Assembly (NCBI GenBank): GCA_029782365.1
Contig: JAKOUW010000014.1
Location: 1-64,000 of the forward strand
Length of the DNA: 64,000 nucleotides
Direction of reading: 5' to 3'
Source of the DNA: Chloroflexota bacterium
Lineage (GTDB): Bacteria > Chloroflexota > Anaerolineae > Anaerolineales > UBA4823
Part shown: piece after piece, positions 1 to 10,327 of the stretch
Position numbering within the stretch: position 1 is the first letter of the stretch
Layout of the letters: each line of letters begins with the position of its first letter
Translations under genes and position numbers: made by a program
Notes under the pieces: model-generated
The model's input: the letters and a program-made list of their open reading frames with translations, nothing else
What the model was told of the DNA's origin: nothing
The model's database searches: none

Positions 1-205
1 ACGGTATCCTCTGCCCTGGCAACGGTGTTCAGGTGGCGCTCAGGTTGCTTTCCAGCAGAGCCTTGTCCTCCGCCCGAACAAACTCATTCTACCATGCCGG
101 ATCGCCTGAAATAATGTTAAAGAATTGCACCGGACATCTCGCCTGACTAAAAGTGGACATTCCGCCCGATTTTTTAAGTACTTCTTATTCCGTTCTTGAC
201 AACGC
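1..205. other. No gene recognised at left edge
   Basis: I see no coding sequence or RNA gene here. The Rhs core homology begins abruptly at base 207, so this is the unrelated DNA onto which the first Rhs cassette was joined. No complete Rhs gene precedes the cassette within the window. Confidence 0.4.
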
Positions 206-568
206 GTGGCGCTGCGCACAAGCGTGGGCGTGCGCTACCTGTTTGGCGACCACCTGGGCAGCACGAGTGTGACAGCGGATGTGAGCGGGGGGAGCGTGAC
301 GAAGCAGTTGTACAAGGCGTGGGGAGAGACGAGATTTACCTCGGGCAGCCTGCCGACGAGGTACCAATACACAGGGCAATACAGCTATGCAACAGGGGCA
401 ACGGGGGACTTCGGGTTGCTGTTTTATAACGCACGCTGGTTTGATCCTGCACTGGCCAGGTTTACCTCGGCAGACAGCATAATCCCTGATGCATCCAATC
501 CAGTTGACTTTGATCGTTACTCCTATGGCCGGAATAACCCTCTTTGTTTTAATGATCCAACTGGCCAT
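206..568 (+). repeat. Rhs core DNA repeat, copy 1
   Basis: Homologous to 2705-3055 and, in its second half, to 4921-5148. Copies 1 and 2 share an unbroken 38-nt run in the stretch encoding VRYLFGDHLGST. Both copies begin at the same base of the core, TGGCGCTGCGCACAAGCG. All are in direct orientation. Confidence 0.85.
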
Positions 569-1234
569 TGGCCGAATGGCATGGCGGTTGAGGGAGACCC
601 CCAAACACCGTACCAATTTTGGGCTTTGATTACAGATGTCACAAAGCCCGTTGCATTAATGGGTAAGAAGGGCCTTGAGGCTCAATATATCGTAGTTGAG
701 TCACCTAATTATTTTTCGACAGTTAAAAGCTATTCTGACAAAAATCACTATAATTTATGTGGTCAACTGTCGTTCGCGTCTATTTATGAATCTCAAGAAG
801 GCGGAAATTCTTTAGCAATGATCTGGGAATTGTATCCAACATTACCAGAAGAAGGAACAGATGTCAATGAATGGGCAAAAAAAATTAATACACTGCCAGG
901 GTGGAACGCTGAAGAAATCTACTTTAACTCAAGCAATCCTTACCAAGAGATTAAATCAACCTTGGATAAGGGAGCCAATATTATGTTTTTTTGTACATTA
1001 GATACAATAACGGGAAAGATTGTAAGTAATTCCAATTTGGGAAAAGGTAGTAATTTTGTGCGTCATTATGTATCAGTGAAAGCAGTGAATTCTGATTTTA
1101 TACTGATCTACAATCCATATATAAATGATTTTCAACGCTACTCATGGGATGATTTTACAAATTCCTGGGGCCCAGCAATTGTAATTACACATCATCACTA
1201 TAGGGCACCACAAGTGAAGGATCGAACAACATGA
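206..1234 (+). CDS. Rhs C-terminal tip cassette 1, papain/C39-like toxin domain
   Basis: This is the end of an Rhs/YD-repeat polymorphic toxin without its long N-terminal barrel. Residues 1-121 are the last part of the conserved core, with GDHLGSTSV, QYTGQYS, ARWFDPALARFTSAD and the closing NPLCFNDPTGH. After that comes a variable, more AT-rich tip. In the tip I see Cys185 in NLCGQLSF, His287 in VRHYVSVK and Asn303 in YNPY, the order and spacing of a papain-like (C39-type) cysteine peptidase; the fold is inferred. The start is GTG 206, the first codon of the segment shared with cassette 2, and no good ribosome site is visible. It may therefore be a silent donor rather than an independently translated gene. 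Its stop overlaps the next gene by ATGA (1231-1234). A full-length Rhs protein is normally above 1000 residues; this piece has 342. Confidence 0.75.
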   Translation: MALRTSVGVRYLFGDHLGSTSVTADVSGGSVTKQLYKAWGETRFTSGSLPTRYQYTGQYSYATGATGDFGLLFYNARWFDPALARFTSADSIIPDASNPVDFDRYSYGRNNPLCFNDPTGHWPNGMAVEGDPQTPYQFWALITDVTKPVALMGKKGLEAQYIVVESPNYFSTVKSYSDKNHYNLCGQLSFASIYESQEGGNSLAMIWELYPTLPEEGTDVNEWAKKINTLPGWNAEEIYFNSSNPYQEIKSTLDKGANIMFFCTLDTITGKIVSNSNLGKGSNFVRHYVSVKAVNSDFILIYNPYINDFQRYSWDDFTNSWGPAIVITHHHYRAPQVKDRTT

Positions 1235-2691
1235 AGTGCCTTAGTAGATCAAGAAACTTTTTATTGGAGATCAAAATTTCATTTTTTTTCGCGTACTGTG
1301 TGTGTCTTTCTGCCTGTGTTGTTCCGATACCCGATTTGCGCAATCCTACAACGCAAATTCAGAACACCACTCAAGTTTCCAGTTATCATCCGTCACCTAC
1401 CTTCGGTGCACCAATTACGGGAACTGCTTCTCAAACTCAGAAATTGACGGAGCAAATCCATCAGGAAACCTCAACCCTACCGGTAGAGAGCAAAACATTG
1501 GAACCTGTTTATTCAATGACCCCAACACTTGAATTAAAACCTACGCCGACATTTCTCACAATTACCCCGACACCGAAACCCAATATTTTTGGATGGCTAG
1601 CATTTTCCAGCATGAAAAATGGTGTTGATGGAATCGCAATTATGCGGGTTGATGGCCTTGGTTGGCGTATGGTTATGGAAGATAGTACCACCACTGGCCA
1701 ACATCCACACGCACCAATATGGTCACCAGATGGGAAATGGATTGCTTTTTTGGAGCATGGAAAAAATGGCGAAGATATATACCTGATGCATCCAGATGGA
1801 ACAAATATTGTGCGGTTAACGAACACTCCAGGCATTAAATCGGGGTTCTCTTGGTCAGCAGATGGAAAATCTATTTTATATGCTTCTATTATTCCCTTGG
1901 AGAATGAAATCGGTGAATGGCTTGGTGATCGATACGAAGGTCTTCAACTGGTAAATATTGGAACTGGAAGAATCACTCAATTAAAGATTCTGCCAAGCCT
2001 CAACATAGCGTCTCCTAAATTTTCGCCTGACGGAAAGAAAATTGCATTTGCAATACAATCCAAAGATAACGCCGACGAAGGTCTTTTCGTAAGCGATATA
2101 GACGGCAATAATCTTCAACAGGTGAGTAATCTACCAGTACGCAGTTATTCCTGGTCGCCTGATGGGCAGCAAATTGTGTTTGCTACATTCCATTATCCAT
2201 TTTGTGATCACTTATATATTGTAAATTTAAATACGCATGAATCGCGTCAAATTACCGATGGACCAGGAGTAGAATTTGACCCATCATGGTCTCCGGATGG
2301 AGAATGGATTGGTTTTAGCTCAGATGAAATTTGTCATATACAAAGTGGAAAATTTTTTCTTATTCGCAGTGATGGCAGTGGATACCAACTATTAAGGGTC
2401 CCAAAGTTCCAAACTTGGGAAGACAACTTAGAATGGTCGCCTTTTCCTGCATTGAATATAGGGAGCACGTTCACGATTACAGAATCTGGTAATGGGATAG
2501 GCTTACAGGCAGAACCCTCATTGAAGGCTGATATTGTGGAAAGGCTTTTGCCTGGAGAACAGATTCTGGTTTTAGATGGACCCCAGAATGCAAATTCATA
2601 TGATTTCTTGTGGTGGCGGGTCCGGCTTGTGGAAAGCGGCATCGAAGGATGGATCAATGAGGTGCCGGGCTGGTTTGCCAGGAAATGGTAA
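1231..2691 (+). CDS. Lipoprotein with PD40/TolB-like propeller and SH3b domain
   Basis: 486 residues. The N-terminus is a lipoprotein signal with lipobox LSAC (Cys29). Residues ~30-115 are a Pro/Thr-rich linker. Residues ~118-405 hold several PD40 (WD40-like) blades with SPDGKWIAF, SADGKSILYAS, SPDGKKIAFA and SPDGEWIGFSSD. The last ~75 residues are a bacterial SH3 domain (ITESGNGIGLQAEPS to IEGWINEVPGW). It would sit on the outer face of the cell membrane. It starts inside the stop of Rhs cassette 1 (ATGA), which implies translational coupling. A close architectural paralogue (5797-7215) follows cassette 3, whose tip is of the same type, while cassette 2 has a different partner. A role as partner or immunity protein for the tip is inference; PD40-SH3b lipoproteins may also have general envelope roles. 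Confidence 0.8.
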   Translation: MKCLSRSRNFLLEIKISFFFAYCVCLSACVVPIPDLRNPTTQIQNTTQVSSYHPSPTFGAPITGTASQTQKLTEQIHQETSTLPVESKTLEPVYSMTPTLELKPTPTFLTITPTPKPNIFGWLAFSSMKNGVDGIAIMRVDGLGWRMVMEDSTTTGQHPHAPIWSPDGKWIAFLEHGKNGEDIYLMHPDGTNIVRLTNTPGIKSGFSWSADGKSILYASIIPLENEIGEWLGDRYEGLQLVNIGTGRITQLKILPSLNIASPKFSPDGKKIAFAIQSKDNADEGLFVSDIDGNNLQQVSNLPVRSYSWSPDGQQIVFATFHYPFCDHLYIVNLNTHESRQITDGPGVEFDPSWSPDGEWIGFSSDEICHIQSGKFFLIRSDGSGYQLLRVPKFQTWEDNLEWSPFPALNIGSTFTITESGNGIGLQAEPSLKADIVERLLPGEQILVLDGPQNANSYDFLWWRVRLVESGIEGWINEVPGWFARKW

Positions 2692-2704
2692 ATTCCCTTC
2701 AGTC

Positions 2705-3055
2705 TTGGCGCTGCGCACAAGCGAGGGTGTGCGCTACCTGTTTGGCGACCACCTGGGCAGCACGAGCGTCAGTGCGGATGTGAGTGGGGGGAGCGTGACG
2801 AAGCAGTTATATAAAGGATGGGGTGAAATCCGGTATGCCTCGGGCAGCCTGCCGACGAAGTATCAATATACCGGGCAGTATTCGAACATGAGCGATTTTG
2901 GGCTAATGTTCTACAATGCGCGCTGGTTTGACCCGGTTTTGGGACGCTTCTCTTCGGCAGATACAATCGTGCCCGGGACTGGCAACCCGGCCGCCTGGGA
3001 TCGTTATGCAGGTATGCTCAATAATCCTCTGAGGTATCGGGATCCGTCGGGACAT
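2705..3055 (+). repeat. Rhs core DNA repeat, copy 2
   Basis: The longest and best conserved copy together with copy 1. Its first half matches 206-340 and its second half matches 4930-5110 nearly base for base, for example around the codons for SGSLPTKYQYTG and SNMSDFGLMFY. Confidence 0.85.
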
Positions 3056-3739
3056 AATGTTTGTTTGGAAGATGGATATTGTTTTAACGGAAAATACTCT
3101 GTAGAAAACCATTTGAAGAAATATGGGATCACCTTAAGAGGAATCTGGAAAGATGAATATAAGTGGGCTGTGTTTTTTGCAGTCTCAGCAGTTGGTGAAA
3201 TGATTGATGGAATTATGAGAAGGAACTCCCCAATGATGGAATTTAAAAGGTTGTATAGTTATGTGGAAATGGAAATGGGAGGTTGCCCTGAATGTCAAGG
3301 AGCTGGTGCATATACACATAGTGCGCACCATATTGAATTCTATAAAGAAAATCCTTTTTGGCGCGTGACTATCGGTTCAGACGGAAAATATCAGCGTTCT
3401 CCAGATTTAGCATTATTGTTAAATAGAAATGAAGTTGTCCATGAACTTGGTCATGCTTTTGCAAAATTATTTTCAGGTCCTAACAGTCCTTCAAGTAAAT
3501 CATTTCCTGATTCTAAATATTTGACCAATGAAGGCTTTAAGGAAGGCTCAAGTTATGCCGGGGATTTATGGCGACAACACCCTGATCAAGGTCTAGGTGT
3601 AGAGGATGATAGCATTCGTCACCATGAAGCTTTTGCGGATATGTTCTTGGGTTATACCTTTGGGCAATGGGCCGGAGATAAAATGGGACAAAATCGCCAT
3701 CAGTATATGGAAACTAATATGGCTGAATGGGTTAAGTAA
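2705..3739 (+). CDS. Rhs C-terminal tip cassette 2, HExxH metallopeptidase toxin domain
   Basis: 344 residues counted from TTG 2705, the codon that aligns with GTG 206 of cassette 1. The frame is open back to 2576, but that part overlaps the end of the preceding lipoprotein and is not Rhs. Residues 1-117 are Rhs core (YLFGDHLGST, QYTGQYSNMSDFG, ARWFDPVLGRFSSAD, NPLRYRDPSGH). The tip contains EVVHELGHAF (zinc ligands His246 and His250, Glu247), and further on HHEAFADMF, where an acidic third ligand is expected. It is probably a zinc metallopeptidase effector. An adjacent CPECQGAG segment precedes it. The next gene is a lipoprotein 36 nt downstream. No ribosome site fits TTG 2705 convincingly, so it too may be a silent donor cassette. 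Confidence 0.72.
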   Translation: MALRTSEGVRYLFGDHLGSTSVSADVSGGSVTKQLYKGWGEIRYASGSLPTKYQYTGQYSNMSDFGLMFYNARWFDPVLGRFSSADTIVPGTGNPAAWDRYAGMLNNPLRYRDPSGHNVCLEDGYCFNGKYSVENHLKKYGITLRGIWKDEYKWAVFFAVSAVGEMIDGIMRRNSPMMEFKRLYSYVEMEMGGCPECQGAGAYTHSAHHIEFYKENPFWRVTIGSDGKYQRSPDLALLLNRNEVVHELGHAFAKLFSGPNSPSSKSFPDSKYLTNEGFKEGSSYAGDLWRQHPDQGLGVEDDSIRHHEAFADMFLGYTFGQWAGDKMGQNRHQYMETNMAEWVK

Positions 3740-3775
3740 TATTTCAATCCTAAAAAAGAAACCGAAGAAAACGAA

Positions 3776-4879
3776 ATGGTGACAATTAAGGTAAATACTC
3801 TTAAAATAATTATTGTGGTTTTACACCTCCTGATATTATGTGGATGCGAAGGAAGACAAATATCAGATCAATCTATTTCTTCAAATTCAACAATTCAGGC
3901 CACAATCTTTTCTCAACCAACCTATACGATACTCAATACATCAATCGAGGAACCTACTACCCAACCTCATTACACCGGGACATCAACCAGCATTCCTACT
4001 CCATCAAAAGTAGCCTCAAACGAAATCGGTTTTACTCGTGTGCCAGAAACTCCTGCTCCAATACTCACACCAGCACCAACCTTGTCACTTCTAAAGTCAA
4101 AGGAGTTGTTCCACTATTTCTTGAATACGAATGGAAATTGTGATTTACCTTGCCTTTGGGGGGTTGTTCCGGGAGATACCGATGTTGAAACATTCAAGAG
4201 ATTTGTGTCTCAGTTTGGAAAGATTGAAGCTGACAATTTTATTTCTCAGGGTGATTGGTCCGAACAAGAGGCATCCCTCTTTTTCGAGGAGAAGGTTGGT
4301 ACTTATGGATATGATGTCACGATGAGTGGTAAGTATTCCCAGCGTATAAATTTCTTATTTTTAAGAATCGACGGGCCTAAAATATCACATCAAACTTCCT
4401 TAATAAACAATATCATTGTTAATTATCAATTATCTACAATACTCTCAAAATTCGGCAAACCTTCGCAAGCGCAGATTGCACCATGGCCAGACGAACCCTC
4501 TCGTCCAAATGAATGGTTACCTTTTAATCTTCTCTTATTCTATCCAGAAAGAGGTTTCAGCATCGAGTATATTTATTCAAAAGAGGAGAGTAAAAATTTC
4601 TTTATTGGTTGCCCGAATCAACTTGTTGGGCTATCAATTATTACCTGGACTCCTAAAAGCTCTTTGATGCTTTCTGAAATTGCGGCGATAAGTGTTTATT
4701 TCTATGGAATGAATAAGGAGATTATTGATCAATATTACAAGCCTATTACAGATGCAATCGGCTTGAGTGAAACCGAATTGGTTGAACAATATGGAAATAA
4801 CAATTCGCAAACCTGTTTTAAAGCCCAAAGATCGAAATGGCCTTACGGCTATTTATCGACAGAAACAGCTTCACCTTAG
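3776..4879 (+). CDS. Lipoprotein of Chloroflexota type, partner of Rhs cassette 2
   Basis: 367 residues with a signal peptide and lipobox LCGC (Cys24), then a Pro/Thr/Ser-rich linker to about residue 105. The C-terminal domain begins LLKSKELFHYF and contains NGNCDLPCLWGVVPGDTDV. Similar Cys-x-Leu-Pro-Cys-x-Trp-Gly-x-x-Pro-Gly stretches are, as far as I recall, common in uncharacterised lipoproteins of Anaerolineae. It has neither PD40 blades nor an SH3b domain, unlike the lipoproteins after cassettes 1 and 3. That difference parallels the different tip of cassette 2. I do not recognise a function; a specific partner or immunity role is inference from position. Confidence 0.7.
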   Translation: MVTIKVNTLKIIIVVLHLLILCGCEGRQISDQSISSNSTIQATIFSQPTYTILNTSIEEPTTQPHYTGTSTSIPTPSKVASNEIGFTRVPETPAPILTPAPTLSLLKSKELFHYFLNTNGNCDLPCLWGVVPGDTDVETFKRFVSQFGKIEADNFISQGDWSEQEASLFFEEKVGTYGYDVTMSGKYSQRINFLFLRIDGPKISHQTSLINNIIVNYQLSTILSKFGKPSQAQIAPWPDEPSRPNEWLPFNLLLFYPERGFSIEYIYSKEESKNFFIGCPNQLVGLSIITWTPKSSLMLSEIAAISVYFYGMNKEIIDQYYKPITDAIGLSETELVEQYGNNNSQTCFKAQRSKWPYGYLSTETASP

Positions 4880-4920
4880 GCTATAAATACATTTAATTTT
4901 CGACAAATGACAATGGAAAT

Positions 4921-5148
4921 GTGAAATTTACCTCGGGCAGCCTGCCGACGAAGTATCAATATACCGGGCAATATTCGAACATGAGCGATTTTGGGCTAAT
5001 GTTCTACATTGCGCGCTGGTTTGACCCTGCGCTGGGCAGATTCTCTTCGGCAGATACCATTGTGCCAGGGGCCGGCAACCCGGCTGCCTGGGATCGCTAT
5101 GCTGGAATGTTGAATAATCCAATTAACTATATTGATCCTACAGGTCAT
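4921..5148 (+). repeat. Rhs core DNA repeat, copy 3 (short)
   Basis: Homologous to the second half of copies 1 and 2. Similarity starts at TTTACCTCGGGCAGCCTG (4926) and continues to the DPTGH codons. The 5' border therefore differs from that of copies 1 and 2. Confidence 0.8.
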
Positions 5149-5778
5149 GGTTGCATAATGACATTAAACGGAAAAGTATGTTCAGATTTATATCCCGACA
5201 TAGGTTTTACCGTTAATGTAGCTGAGGATAGAAAAGCTAATACTAAACAATCCCAATACGCAATAATAGGCAATAAGTACCTAACAGGTAACGCGTGCGG
5301 CTTTATAGCGGTTGAAATTGTTGCAGAAGCTATCTTTGGCTTTAAAGTCCCGTTGGTAAGCATATATACTAAGTTTATTACTACAGGTCTGATAACCCCC
5401 TATCACGTGGCTAATTTGGTGCAGCAAACGGTGCCCTTCGCTATGGCTCAAGTCAGGGCATGGCGAAAAGATGCAATAAACGAGATTATAAGTTGTCTCA
5501 ACCATGAAAAGCTTGTAATAGCATATGTGCGAGTTGACCCTGAGACGGGTAGACTCATTGCACAAGAATTTATCAAAATCGAACAAGGAGTTTATGATCA
5601 GACTAAACTTGCAAATCATTATGTTGTGGTAAAAGAAATCAACCATGAATACGTAATTGTAATAAACCCTTTCAATAATGCTGAAGAAAAGTACACTACA
5701 ACTGAGTTTTCGGCCAGCTTTGCTGAAACTTATGTGGTAATTACTCCACCGCCAAACAAGAATCCCATTCCAGTATAG
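4921..5778 (+). CDS. Rhs C-terminal tip cassette 3, papain/C39-like toxin domain
   Basis: 285 residues from GTG 4921. Only about 75 residues of Rhs core are left (SGSLPTKYQYTGQYSN, ARWFDPALGRFSSAD, NPINYIDPTGH), so this cassette is cut further into the core than the other two. The tip has Cys126 in GNACGFIAVEIV, His233 in NHYVVVKEI and Asn249 in VINPFNNAEEKY. This matches the Cys-His-Asn arrangement of cassette 1 (NLCGQ, RHYVSVK, YNPY), so the two tips appear to be divergent members of one papain-like family. The tip DNA is AT-rich compared with the core piece. Only a weak GGAAA precedes the start. The lipoprotein gene follows 18 nt after the stop. Confidence 0.7.
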   Translation: MKFTSGSLPTKYQYTGQYSNMSDFGLMFYIARWFDPALGRFSSADTIVPGAGNPAAWDRYAGMLNNPINYIDPTGHGCIMTLNGKVCSDLYPDIGFTVNVAEDRKANTKQSQYAIIGNKYLTGNACGFIAVEIVAEAIFGFKVPLVSIYTKFITTGLITPYHVANLVQQTVPFAMAQVRAWRKDAINEIISCLNHEKLVIAYVRVDPETGRLIAQEFIKIEQGVYDQTKLANHYVVVKEINHEYVIVINPFNNAEEKYTTTEFSASFAETYVVITPPPNKNPIPV

Positions 5779-5796
5779 ACGGTTGGAGGAAGCATT

Positions 5797-7215
5797 ATGG
5801 CTCAATTAATTCTTCTTTTATTTCTTGTTTTGTTCACAGGTTGTTCGCCTGTTACTTTCGCTCCAGCCTATCCGAAGGCAACCGAAGGCGCTATACAGGC
5901 GCATAGTGCTACAATAACGCAAGGATTGACGATCGTTACAACCAGTCCAAGCGAAACGGTTCTTCGAACGATTACACCGACCATTGCACCAACGGAATCG
6001 CCTACAATAGCAGCAATTCCAGCCATCCAACTGCCTGCGCTGTTACAATCCACGTGGATTGCGTTTATAGGCAATGGATATTCAGGGGTATATCTTGTGC
6101 GCCCGGATGGTTCTGATGTGCGAAATATTTATTTTAATCCAGGAACCTTTGTAAGCGAACCTTCCTGGTCTCCAGATGGTCATAGATTGGCAATTACATA
6201 TTCTATCCCTTATGACCTGAATTGGAACGGAGATTTCCAAATTTTCATCATCGATATCGATGGCAAAAACTTACGTCAACTGACTTATGAAAAAGGTCGA
6301 GTGAACTCTTATCCTTCCTGGTCGCCAGACGGTAAATGGATCGCATATCAAAGCATGTATTTTCTCAATAATCAAGCTTTTTCGGACATTGAAATCGTGG
6401 CTTCTGGAGGAGGAACCCCAAGGGTCCTTGTTAAAAATGGTTTTGTTAACACGAGTCCGATCTGGGCGCAAGATGGAAAATCGATATATTATATGGCCTC
6501 TCGTTCTCTGGATGATATACATATATTGATGTCAATTGACCTCGATAGCTTTCATGAGCGGGTGGAATTCCATCCTCCAGATTCGACCTTTGGATTTCGT
6601 ATTTCATCCATCGCGTATGATGAAGGTAAGATATTATTGGATAATGGTAATCTTTCTGGTTCTGGAGATGAATGCTTAGGGATAATGGAGTTTTCATTAA
6701 AGAATGAAAGCCGGAAAATATTACCTTTTAAAGCTTGGACATTGGCAATGCCCACCTTTTCGCCAAATTCAAGATACATTGCACTACTCATTGATACAGG
6801 AAAAGCTTGCAGAGGATATGCAGATGATTGGGGTTTATATATCATGGATCTTCAGACAGGTACGGTTAAGCAAGTGATTGAGGAAATTATCGGTCATGCA
6901 GATACTCCATCCTGGCATCCAGATACTCCCGCGTGGTCACCAGTACCCACCCTACAGCATCAGCAGAATTATTTAATCACAGCATTGGGAGACAGGTTAA
7001 ACCTGCACAGCAAGGCTGCCATTGGATCAAATGTAATCCAGCAGCTCAAGCAAGGAGAAAAAATTATCGTTCTTGAAGGCCCGGTAGATGCGGATGGCTA
7101 CTACTGGTGGCGCATACGCACAGCGGACGGCGTCGAGGGTTGGGCGGTCGAGGTGGCGGGCTGGTACGCTCCGCTTGAGCAGCCTGGCACTTCGACGGTA
7201 ACGCCTGCGCCGTAA
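5797..7215 (+). CDS. Lipoprotein with PD40/TolB-like propeller and SH3b domain
   Basis: 472 residues, preceded by GGAGG at a good distance from ATG 5797. It has a short signal with lipobox LFTGC (Cys16), then a Thr/Pro-rich linker to about residue 80. PD40 blades follow (SPDGHRLAITYS, SPDGKWIAYQSM, AQDGKSIYYMAS, SPNSRYIALLID), then a C-terminal SH3b domain (ITALGDRLNLHSKAAI to VEGWAVEVAGWY). It has the same architecture as 1231-2691, and both follow a papain-like Rhs tip. It is predicted to be anchored outside the membrane. Partner or immunity function is inferred from that pairing only. Confidence 0.8.
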   Translation: MAQLILLLFLVLFTGCSPVTFAPAYPKATEGAIQAHSATITQGLTIVTTSPSETVLRTITPTIAPTESPTIAAIPAIQLPALLQSTWIAFIGNGYSGVYLVRPDGSDVRNIYFNPGTFVSEPSWSPDGHRLAITYSIPYDLNWNGDFQIFIIDIDGKNLRQLTYEKGRVNSYPSWSPDGKWIAYQSMYFLNNQAFSDIEIVASGGGTPRVLVKNGFVNTSPIWAQDGKSIYYMASRSLDDIHILMSIDLDSFHERVEFHPPDSTFGFRISSIAYDEGKILLDNGNLSGSGDECLGIMEFSLKNESRKILPFKAWTLAMPTFSPNSRYIALLIDTGKACRGYADDWGLYIMDLQTGTVKQVIEEIIGHADTPSWHPDTPAWSPVPTLQHQQNYLITALGDRLNLHSKAAIGSNVIQQLKQGEKIIVLEGPVDADGYYWWRIRTADGVEGWAVEVAGWYAPLEQPGTSTVTPAP

Positions 7216-7256
7216 TGGTTGGTCTTAGCTGGGACAACCGAAGGATTTCATGATCA

Positions 7257-7757
7257 TCAGGCTTTCCGCTGCGCATCATCGATGATCTCCGCCACGATTT
7301 CGGCGGCGGGGCGGGCGGCGCCGCACACCAGGGCGTCCGCCGGCTCTTCCAGCGCCGCGAACTGGCTTTTCAACATTTCGGGCTGCATGTAATGCCCCTG
7401 GCGGGCCGCCATGCGGGACCAGAACAGCGCGTAGCTGCCTTTGAGATAGACGATCTGCACGCCCGCCGCGCCGGCGACCAGCGTCTGCCGGTAGCGCTCT
7501 TTGAGCGCCGAGCAGGCCAGCACCCCCGGGCGGTTTTCTGCCAGGCAAGCGGCGATCAACTGGCGCAAACGCGCCAGCCAGGGCGCACGATCCTGGTCGT
7601 CGAGCGGGATGCCGGCAGCCATCCTGGCGATGTTCTCCGGCGGGTGAAAATCATCCCCGTCGTAGAAATCCCAGCCCAATGCCTGGGCCAGCGCCTGGCC
7701 AACCGTGGTCTTGCCGCAGCCCGAGACGCCCATGACCAGGTAAAATCTTGGCTTCAT
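7257..7757 (-). CDS. gntK: Gluconokinase (GntK family)
   Basis: Phosphorylates D-gluconate to 6-phosphogluconate with ATP, feeding the pentose phosphate pathway. The 166-residue protein has the P-loop GVSGCGKT near its start, then DGDDFHPPENIARMAAGIPL, ACSALKERYR and GHYMQPEMLKSQFAALEEP, all hallmarks of the thermoresistant gluconokinase family. ATG 7757 is preferred over TTG 7772 because GGAA lies at a suitable distance. It follows the MutS-like gene on the same strand after 23 nt. The glucose dehydrogenase-like gene at 55786 could supply its substrate. Confidence 0.88.
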   Translation of the reverse strand: MKPRFYLVMGVSGCGKTTVGQALAQALGWDFYDGDDFHPPENIARMAAGIPLDDQDRAPWLARLRQLIAACLAENRPGVLACSALKERYRQTLVAGAAGVQIVYLKGSYALFWSRMAARQGHYMQPEMLKSQFAALEEPADALVCGAARPAAEIVAEIIDDAQRKA

Positions 7758-9626: not shown

Positions 9627-10055
9627 TCACTCAAGTAGATAAGCCATCTGTACTTTCCTGGCGGCTTCTATCAGTTGGACGTCGAACGAGGCCAGTGTGA
9701 CTGGCATCCCCAAGGTTTCCTGCCAAATGAGTGCGCAGGCCAGGTGGGTAGCATCATAGCCCCTCAGGTTATACTCGACAGCCAGGTTGTCGCCGCGCGC
9801 CACCGTATTTTCGGTGATCGGCAATCGCTGAAAGCTCTCCCATTCCAGGCGGAACTGGCGCAGTGTGGTGAGGGCTTCTTTGGATGTGATCAGCTGCATT
9901 CGGTTGGCGCGAGCAATCGCCGCAGCGACCTCAACCCGGGTAATCAGAGCGGTCACGACCATATCGGCGGCCTCAATCCAGGCGTTAACATCCTGTGAAG
10001 CATTTTCTTGAATATAGCGTTTCACCAGCGCGCTGGCATCCAGGTAGAGGATCAC
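9627..10055 (-). CDS. vapC: VapC-like PIN-domain toxin
   Basis: 142 residues, PIN-domain ribonuclease of a type II toxin-antitoxin pair. Acidic metal ligands expected of the fold are present: Asp6 in YLDASALVKRY, Glu42 in TRVEVAAA, Asp100 in YDATHLACAL, and Asp119 near the end in LASFDVQL. GTG start overlaps the antitoxin stop as GTGA (10052-10055), typical of translational coupling. Target RNA cannot be read from sequence. Confidence 0.88.
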   Translation of the reverse strand: MILYLDASALVKRYIQENASQDVNAWIEAADMVVTALITRVEVAAAIARANRMQLITSKEALTTLRQFRLEWESFQRLPITENTVARGDNLAVEYNLRGYDATHLACALIWQETLGMPVTLASFDVQLIEAARKVQMAYLLE

Positions 10056-10327
10056 TCGCGCATCTCCACCAGGAGATCCGCGACTTGCCGGTCGCCGCGG
10101 TTTACAGCCACCGGCCTGACAGGTTTCAGTTTCTCACCATTCCAGGCGACTAACCCGGCAGCCTGCAGCGCCTGAAGCCGTTCATTGATAGGCTGATCAA
10201 CCGGCGACAGGCGACCGACCGGGCGTCCATGATCCGTGATGATGACCGTCTGTCCCTGGCTGACCTGGCGAAGGTATTCGCTCAATCGCGCTTTCAGATC
10301 GCGGACACCAACCCGTAATTCATTCAT
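10052..10327 (-). CDS. vapB: Phd/YefM-type antitoxin of the VapBC pair
   Basis: 91 residues. The N-terminal half (VGVRDLKARLSEYLRQV, GQTVIITDHGRPVGRL) is the DNA-binding Phd/YefM antitoxin domain. The C-terminal half is a variable toxin-binding tail. A strong ribosome site (GGAGG) precedes ATG 10327. The gene is first in the operon, directly behind a promoter overlapped by a 9-bp inverted repeat, so autorepression by the antitoxin or the complex is likely. Confidence 0.88.
   Translation of the reverse strand: MNELRVGVRDLKARLSEYLRQVSQGQTVIITDHGRPVGRLSPVDQPINERLQALQAAGLVAWNGEKLKPVRPVAVNRGDRQVADLLVEMRE

Follow-up and report, generated by a model that had tools for sequence, protein, structure and literature searches.

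Orphan Rhs tip cassettes with predicted lipoprotein immunity genes in a most likely monoderm bacterium of the class Anaerolineae

The DNA analysed here, a stretch of 64,000 nucleotides to which we refer as the window, forms the leftmost part of contig C32 in a Chloroflexota assembly of 6.8 Mb in 261 contigs that is rated 100% complete with 8.67% contamination. Near its left edge, three plus-strand segments match the Rhs_assc_core model (TIGR03696) at positions 311-568, 2810-3055 and 4936-5148, with E-values of ~8e-15 each. All three cores cross the D/SPxGH boundary and run into tips of 212-230 amino acids, which bears out the initial annotation of this DNA as three plus-strand Rhs-core cassettes, each with its boundary and tip. 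The lipoprotein genes that the same annotation placed behind the tip genes at -4, +36 and +18 nt (cassettes 1, 2 and 3, respectively) lie at exactly these distances. All three products carry a lipobox, judged by inspection to be LSAC, LCGC and FTGC in lipoproteins 1, 2 and 3; lipoprotein 3 has the weakest signal peptide, which is devoid of a basic residue in the n-region and fails a strict lipobox rule. The features of the locus are as follows.

1-201, plus strand: putative IS-like element end, multi-copy, with near-identical sequences of 199-203 bp bordering contigs C32, C30, C14, C39 and C22; it divides cassette 1 from whatever lay upstream
206-1234, plus strand: cassette 1, a truncated Rhs core (match 311-568; TIGR03696, 7.8e-15) and a C39-like tip (~560-1231) with homology to the C39 tips of contig C213 and cassette 3 and with the NxCG, H and N residues
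1231-2691, plus strand: lipoprotein 1, a PD40 beta-propeller (3.2e-31) with a weak SH3_3 match and the lipobox LSAC, overlapping the tip gene by 4 nt; predicted immunity protein of tip 1
2706-3739, plus strand: cassette 2 (orphan), a truncated Rhs core (2706-3055; TIGR03696, 8.1e-15) and a predicted zincin tip (3047-3736) with HELGH and a distal ExxAD
3776-4879, plus strand: lipoprotein 2, of an undescribed four-cysteine family (CxxPCxWGxxPG) with invariant cysteines and class-wide adjacency to zincin tips (24/30); predicted immunity protein of tip 2
4921-5778, plus strand: cassette 3 (orphan), a truncated Rhs core (4936-5148; TIGR03696, 7.6e-15) and a C39 tip (~5140-5775; Peptidase_C39, 8.9e-8)
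5797-7215, plus strand: lipoprotein 3, a PD40 beta-propeller (5.3e-15) with an SH3 domain (SH3_3, 3.7e-10), a GGAGGA ribosome-binding site and the lipobox FTGC; predicted immunity protein of tip 3
7072-7300, plus strand: 3' homology block made up of the SH3 end of lipoprotein 3 and its flank, 94% identical in DNA to the end of the C213 cassette; likely right-hand recombination site

Further into the window, on the minus strand at 9627-10327, a PIN-like and an antitoxin-like ORF were recognised by eye as a probable VapBC-type toxin-antitoxin pair. A search for anti-phage defence families found none.

Copies of the leftmost 201 positions (199-203 bp) occur at five places in the genome and are followed by different sequences where these were read; the segment resembles the terminus of an IS-like element. 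The Rhs core homology of cassette 1 begins right behind it. With the contig edge and the IS-like end sitting directly upstream, cassette 1 may be an orphan or may represent the end of a full-length Rhs gene interrupted by the IS. On contig C30 the IS-like end likewise abuts Rhs-like sequence. Cassettes 2 and 3, which start 15 and ~42 nt past the stop codon of the preceding lipoprotein gene, are genuine orphans, with a truncated core, neither an N-terminal export part nor a translation start, and homology to other Rhs genes; no plausible ribosome-binding site was found ahead of their possible starts. Such sites do precede lipoprotein genes 1 and 3, with GGAGGA located shortly upstream of the latter. 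The initial observation that no N-terminal Rhs barrel is present therefore holds for cassettes 2 and 3, but cannot be extended to cassette 1, which has the contig start and the IS-like end upstream of it.

Tip 3 is recognised by the Pfam model Peptidase_C39 (PF03412) at 8.9e-8. Tip 1, which no Pfam model recognises by itself, is C39-type by homology (blastp 2.9e-10 to the C213 tip), the NxCG, H and N residues being conserved across three C39-type tips, tip 1 included. Since tips 1 and 3 are of the same family, the window contains two tip types, and the earlier impression that both look like peptidases agrees with their sequences: a C39-like cysteine peptidase in the case of tips 1 and 3, and, going by its motifs, a predicted zincin in the case of tip 2. 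The partners of the two C39-type tips, lipoproteins 1 and 3, are both PD40 propellers with an SH3 domain. We considered the PD40 fold as a marker of Rhs partners and dropped it, as the propeller repeats are found away from Rhs as well. When the 249 genomes of the class were searched, C39 tips outside of the source genome gave weak matches at most.

Both the HELGH and the distal ExxAD motif of tip 2 are conserved in six relatives (alignment A1). No Pfam model matched this tip, and a PDB search returned non-significant matches to the active-site motif alone. In profile searches the family of lipoprotein 2 had no significant Pfam match and no PDB relative; its members share four invariant cysteines, as expected of proteins that reside outside the cytoplasm. 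AlphaFold2 predictions run on single sequences of the zincin tip and lipoprotein 2 yielded pLDDT values of 37-38, which are unusable as support for a fold. The appearance of the four-cysteine family might suggest a BamE/BLIP-like protein, a resemblance that we do not claim. Going by these searches, the putative partner of the zincin tip is an undescribed four-cysteine family.

The pattern extends well beyond the window. The source genome contains 34 Rhs-core matches, and we counted the 31 places at which a tip of more than 100 amino acids has a following gene. That gene encodes a lipoprotein at 21 of the 31 places according to the strict lipobox rule, and at ~24 if three borderline signals are added by eye; the background rate is 3 lipoproteins in 74 ORFs, and the difference between 21/31 and 3/74 (Fisher p ~1e-11) rules out chance adjacency of common lipoproteins. 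The remaining places comprise four membrane-anchored or membrane-spanning partners (C250, C144, C201:7972 and C1), one cytosolic partner (C24), the Rhs gene of C89 and one remnant. Homologous tips go with homologous partners in four groups, namely zincin, C39, and families A and D, the latter two without a Pfam match. Other tips match Phage_lysozyme (GH24, 1.1e-18) and Peptidase_M23 (2.6e-16 and 7.9e-4), and a Tox-REase-7 tip (7.4e-21; C24 588-2122, L085) is followed by a soluble partner of HEAT-like type; no other pair in the genome is clearly cytosolic. At least four tip families plus M23, GH24 and REase-7 are thus carried on the same core in one genome. Copy numbers and linkage should be taken as approximate, since the assembly is fragmented and 8.67% contaminated and repeats interrupt its Rhs contigs. 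The Rhs gene of C89 (118000-134000, L093) lies within a contractile-injection-system-like cluster and has a different zincin-like tip with no lipoprotein behind it. The suggestion made from the window, that of a peptidase system with lipoprotein partners, fits the window but is too narrow for the genome, in which non-peptidase tips as well as transmembrane and cytosolic partners exist.

Profile searches of the 249 genomes of the class, run separately with zincin tips (A1) and with lipoproteins (A2), converged on the same loci. An Rhs zincin tip lies directly ahead of 24 of the 30 full-length lipoprotein matches, and a lipobox is recognisable in 21 of these 24 paired partners, or in 22 if one counts a frameshifted copy whose preceding frame contains the lipobox. 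Sequence identities among tips and among partners are correlated (Mantel r = 0.85, n = 22; r = 0.59 for 18 nonredundant pairs; p = 2e-4), a correlation that partly stems from the common ancestry of whole cassettes and that shows, as far as sequences go, that the pairs are inherited as units and not reassorted, without implying binding. Lipoproteins occurring elsewhere without tips had been named in the initial annotation as counting against its reading; six of the 30 are indeed solitary, two of them with a doubled domain, and they fit stand-alone immunity genes. In the latter two (G238:C554, L202, and G248:C78, L205) the four-cysteine domain is present twice in tandem, and these may be broad or stacked immunity genes. 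A scan of a genome collection with the tip returned one named locus, JAQUKQ010000143.1. On this contig (L217), which is labelled Desulfobulbaceae, is short and thinly covered and is possibly mis-binned, orphan nuclease-like tips with soluble partners sit beside a zincin/lipoprotein cassette.

Among the relatives, the location of the partner follows the type of the tip. Lipoproteins accompany an Amidase_6 tip, a hydrolase tip and additional zincin tips; the partners of the Tox-ART-HYD1 (ADP-ribosyltransferase) and CDI-type nuclease tips are soluble, and those of several hydrophobic tips are membrane proteins. In a hand-compiled count, a lipoprotein partner was assigned to ~33 of 35 envelope-type enzyme tips versus none of 4 nuclease or ADP-ribosyltransferase tips (p ~2e-4), a result that is supportive and not blind because the tip classes were assigned after the data had been seen. 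The Tox-REase-7 control family had too few members in the class for statistics of its own.

The cassettes are mosaics. Rhs cores from different loci are mostly 70-94% identical in DNA, and cores and 3' flanks that are up to 94% identical enclose different tips. A 2.06 kb block of the window (851-2889), running from the last part of tip 1 through lipoprotein 1 into the following core, has a 93% identical counterpart at C1 2386-4443 (L087); this is either a duplicate or a variant from another strain, and it sits behind a different tip with a membrane-protein partner. Similarly, 229 bp around the end of lipoprotein 3 share 94% identity with the C213 cassette, while over most of its remaining length the protein shares 28-52%. 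These homology blocks fit recombination at conserved flanks that would shift a tip together with its guard. Contamination of the assembly or a mixture of strains could mimic some of the duplicates. In an Rhs ORF on contig C123 (3347-5530, L084) the start of a tip continues in frame into the terminal part of a PD40-like propeller, in what looks, from the reading frame, like a deletion that joined toxin and immunity genes.

How the tips might reach their site of action is indicated by longer Rhs genes. Contig C166 encodes a 1648-aa N-terminal half of an Rhs protein, cut by the contig end, in which a signal peptide is followed by SpvB and then an Rhs repeat. In a relative, G263, a single frame encodes a 2082-aa protein with SpvB, Rhs repeats, the core and a zincin tip, with the lipoprotein following. 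LptD and Omp85 were absent from the source genome, which is rated 100% complete, in a search with positive controls; the host is therefore most likely a monoderm.

Taken together, these observations make it quite probable that the three units are tip/immunity cassettes with extracytoplasmic action. The basis of this reading is the anatomy of the locus, the genome-wide and class-wide pairing, the paired divergence and the mosaic homology blocks. The idea of surface-acting orphan tips with lipoprotein immunity in a monoderm, already put forward from the window, gains support from the lipoprotein enrichment, the co-segregation of tips and partners, their class-wide adjacency, the M23 and lysozyme tips, the absence of LptD and Omp85, and the Sec signal on the C166 half-gene. 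In the mechanism that we propose, a full-length Rhs protein with Sec signal peptide, SpvB and Rhs repeats would display a variable tip on the exterior of the cell. The majority of the tips (zincin, C39-type, M23 and GH24) would act as hydrolases of peptidoglycan, of surface proteins or of other material beyond the cytoplasmic membrane. The lipoprotein encoded behind the tip would sit, lipid-anchored, on the outer side of the membrane, where it is predicted to bind and block the cognate tip and so protect producers and their kin. The window cassettes would most likely form a silent store of donors, because their cores are truncated and good start sites are lacking; recombination, on the left in the conserved core and on the right in the 3' end or flank of the lipoprotein gene, would place a tip and its guard behind a full-length Rhs gene. 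Whether this monoderm lineage conducts its Rhs warfare mainly in this way, via extracytoplasmic tips and lipid-anchored inhibitors (four-cysteine proteins for zincins, PD40-propeller/SH3 proteins for C39-type tips) that are kept as exchangeable cassettes, is a broader proposition that we hold to be evenly balanced between right and wrong.

Other functions can be imagined for the same genes. The lipoproteins are surface proteins that adjoin secreted Rhs proteins, and lipobox partners are known for secreted polymorphic toxins (PMC3482391), so they might serve as export or anchoring partners of Rhs, as the lipobox protein MafA does with MafB in Neisseria, rather than in immunity. We regard this as unlikely: an adaptor should track the conserved Rhs body, yet the partner family tracks the tip family, and the partner lies downstream of the tip, accompanies orphan cassettes devoid of the export portion, and gives way to transmembrane or cytosolic proteins behind other tips. 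A role for the tips as surface hydrolases in the turnover of wall or polymer, with the lipoproteins as regulators or substrate-binding partners and no weapons involved, draws on the facts that lysozyme, M23, C39 and zincin domains serve in housekeeping enzymes too and that PD40 repeats are not confined to Rhs loci. It is made about equally unlikely by the hallmarks of polymorphic toxins, foreign to housekeeping enzymes, that the loci display: strong diversification of tips behind a constant core, orphan arrays, cassette mosaicism and a Tox-REase-7 nuclease tip with a cytosolic partner in the same series.

The least probable of the alternatives, in our judgement, is that the array is a graveyard of remnants damaged by IS elements and recombination and left over passively. 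Truncated cores, the want of good start sites and the IS-like end at 1-201 all suit it, as do the frameshifted or fused Rhs remnants found elsewhere in the genome (C14, C123, C143:865 and C204). Yet all six reading frames of the window are intact, their catalytic motifs and lipoboxes are conserved, and lipoproteins 1 and 3 have plausible ribosome-binding sites. The 93% identical block copy in another context, moreover, suggests use as a donor, and for the orphan cassettes of Salmonella recruitment through recombination has been proposed (PMC3967940).

Given the precedents of VgrG2b/Tpe1, WapA, Salmonella orphan Rhs and Imm65, the class of mechanism is already known. The orphan rhs-CT/rhsI of Salmonella LT2, for which recruitment by recombination has been proposed, shares the truncated core, the DPxG boundary, the tip with its adjacent partner, the absence of start and export signals and the homology to full-length genes; it differs in being one orphan behind one main gene in a diderm, whereas here several stand in series in a monoderm with mostly lipoprotein partners genome-wide (PMC3967940). 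The type VI pairs VgrG2b/PA0261 and Tpe1/Tpi1 likewise combine an HExxH metallopeptidase tip acting outside the cytoplasm with an extracytoplasmic immunity protein, which in Enterobacteriaceae is a lipoprotein; these systems, however, are VgrG-delivered and found in diderms, and the four-cysteine partner described here, which has no Pfam match, is likened to them by architecture (PMC6899460). Closer in envelope type is WapA/Rhs of Streptococcus suis, a Sec-exported monoderm Rhs with variable tips and orphan duplications, some tips of which act in the periplasm and are toxic only if exported; lipoproteins are absent from the main text of that study, and the N-terminal part found here, in one half-gene, is SpvB-type (PMC12704120). 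TelC/TipC of Streptococcus intermedius is also a monoderm system, with a toxin that has an extracellular wall-precursor target and is toxic only when exported, but it is a single pair with LXG/Esx (type VII) export and a lipid II phosphatase fold, described without mention of lipoproteins (PMC5555719).

The 2012 survey of polymorphic toxins recorded Rhs proteins tipped with C39-type and HExxH domains, as we find here, under the names Tox-PLC39, noted in Chloroflexi, and Tox-MPTase1-5, which are widespread, and listed no immunity protein for either; its Imm65, with signal peptide and lipobox, provides a lipobox precedent but pairs with Tox-JAB-1 in Bacteroidetes (PMC3482391). In the open-access literature we found no paper on Rhs toxins in Anaerolineae. 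New here are the extent to which lipoprotein guards dominate a single genome, the scale, the lineage, the specific pairs and the four-cysteine family. The partners that we describe would fill the immunity gap for the Tox-PLC39 and Tox-MPTase tips (PMC3482391), one of them being an undescribed family with consistent pairing. The pairing predicts that each lipoprotein guards against its own tip only. If our proposal is true, this organism would be a monoderm in which toxin-mediated competition takes place chiefly at the exterior of the membrane and within the wall.
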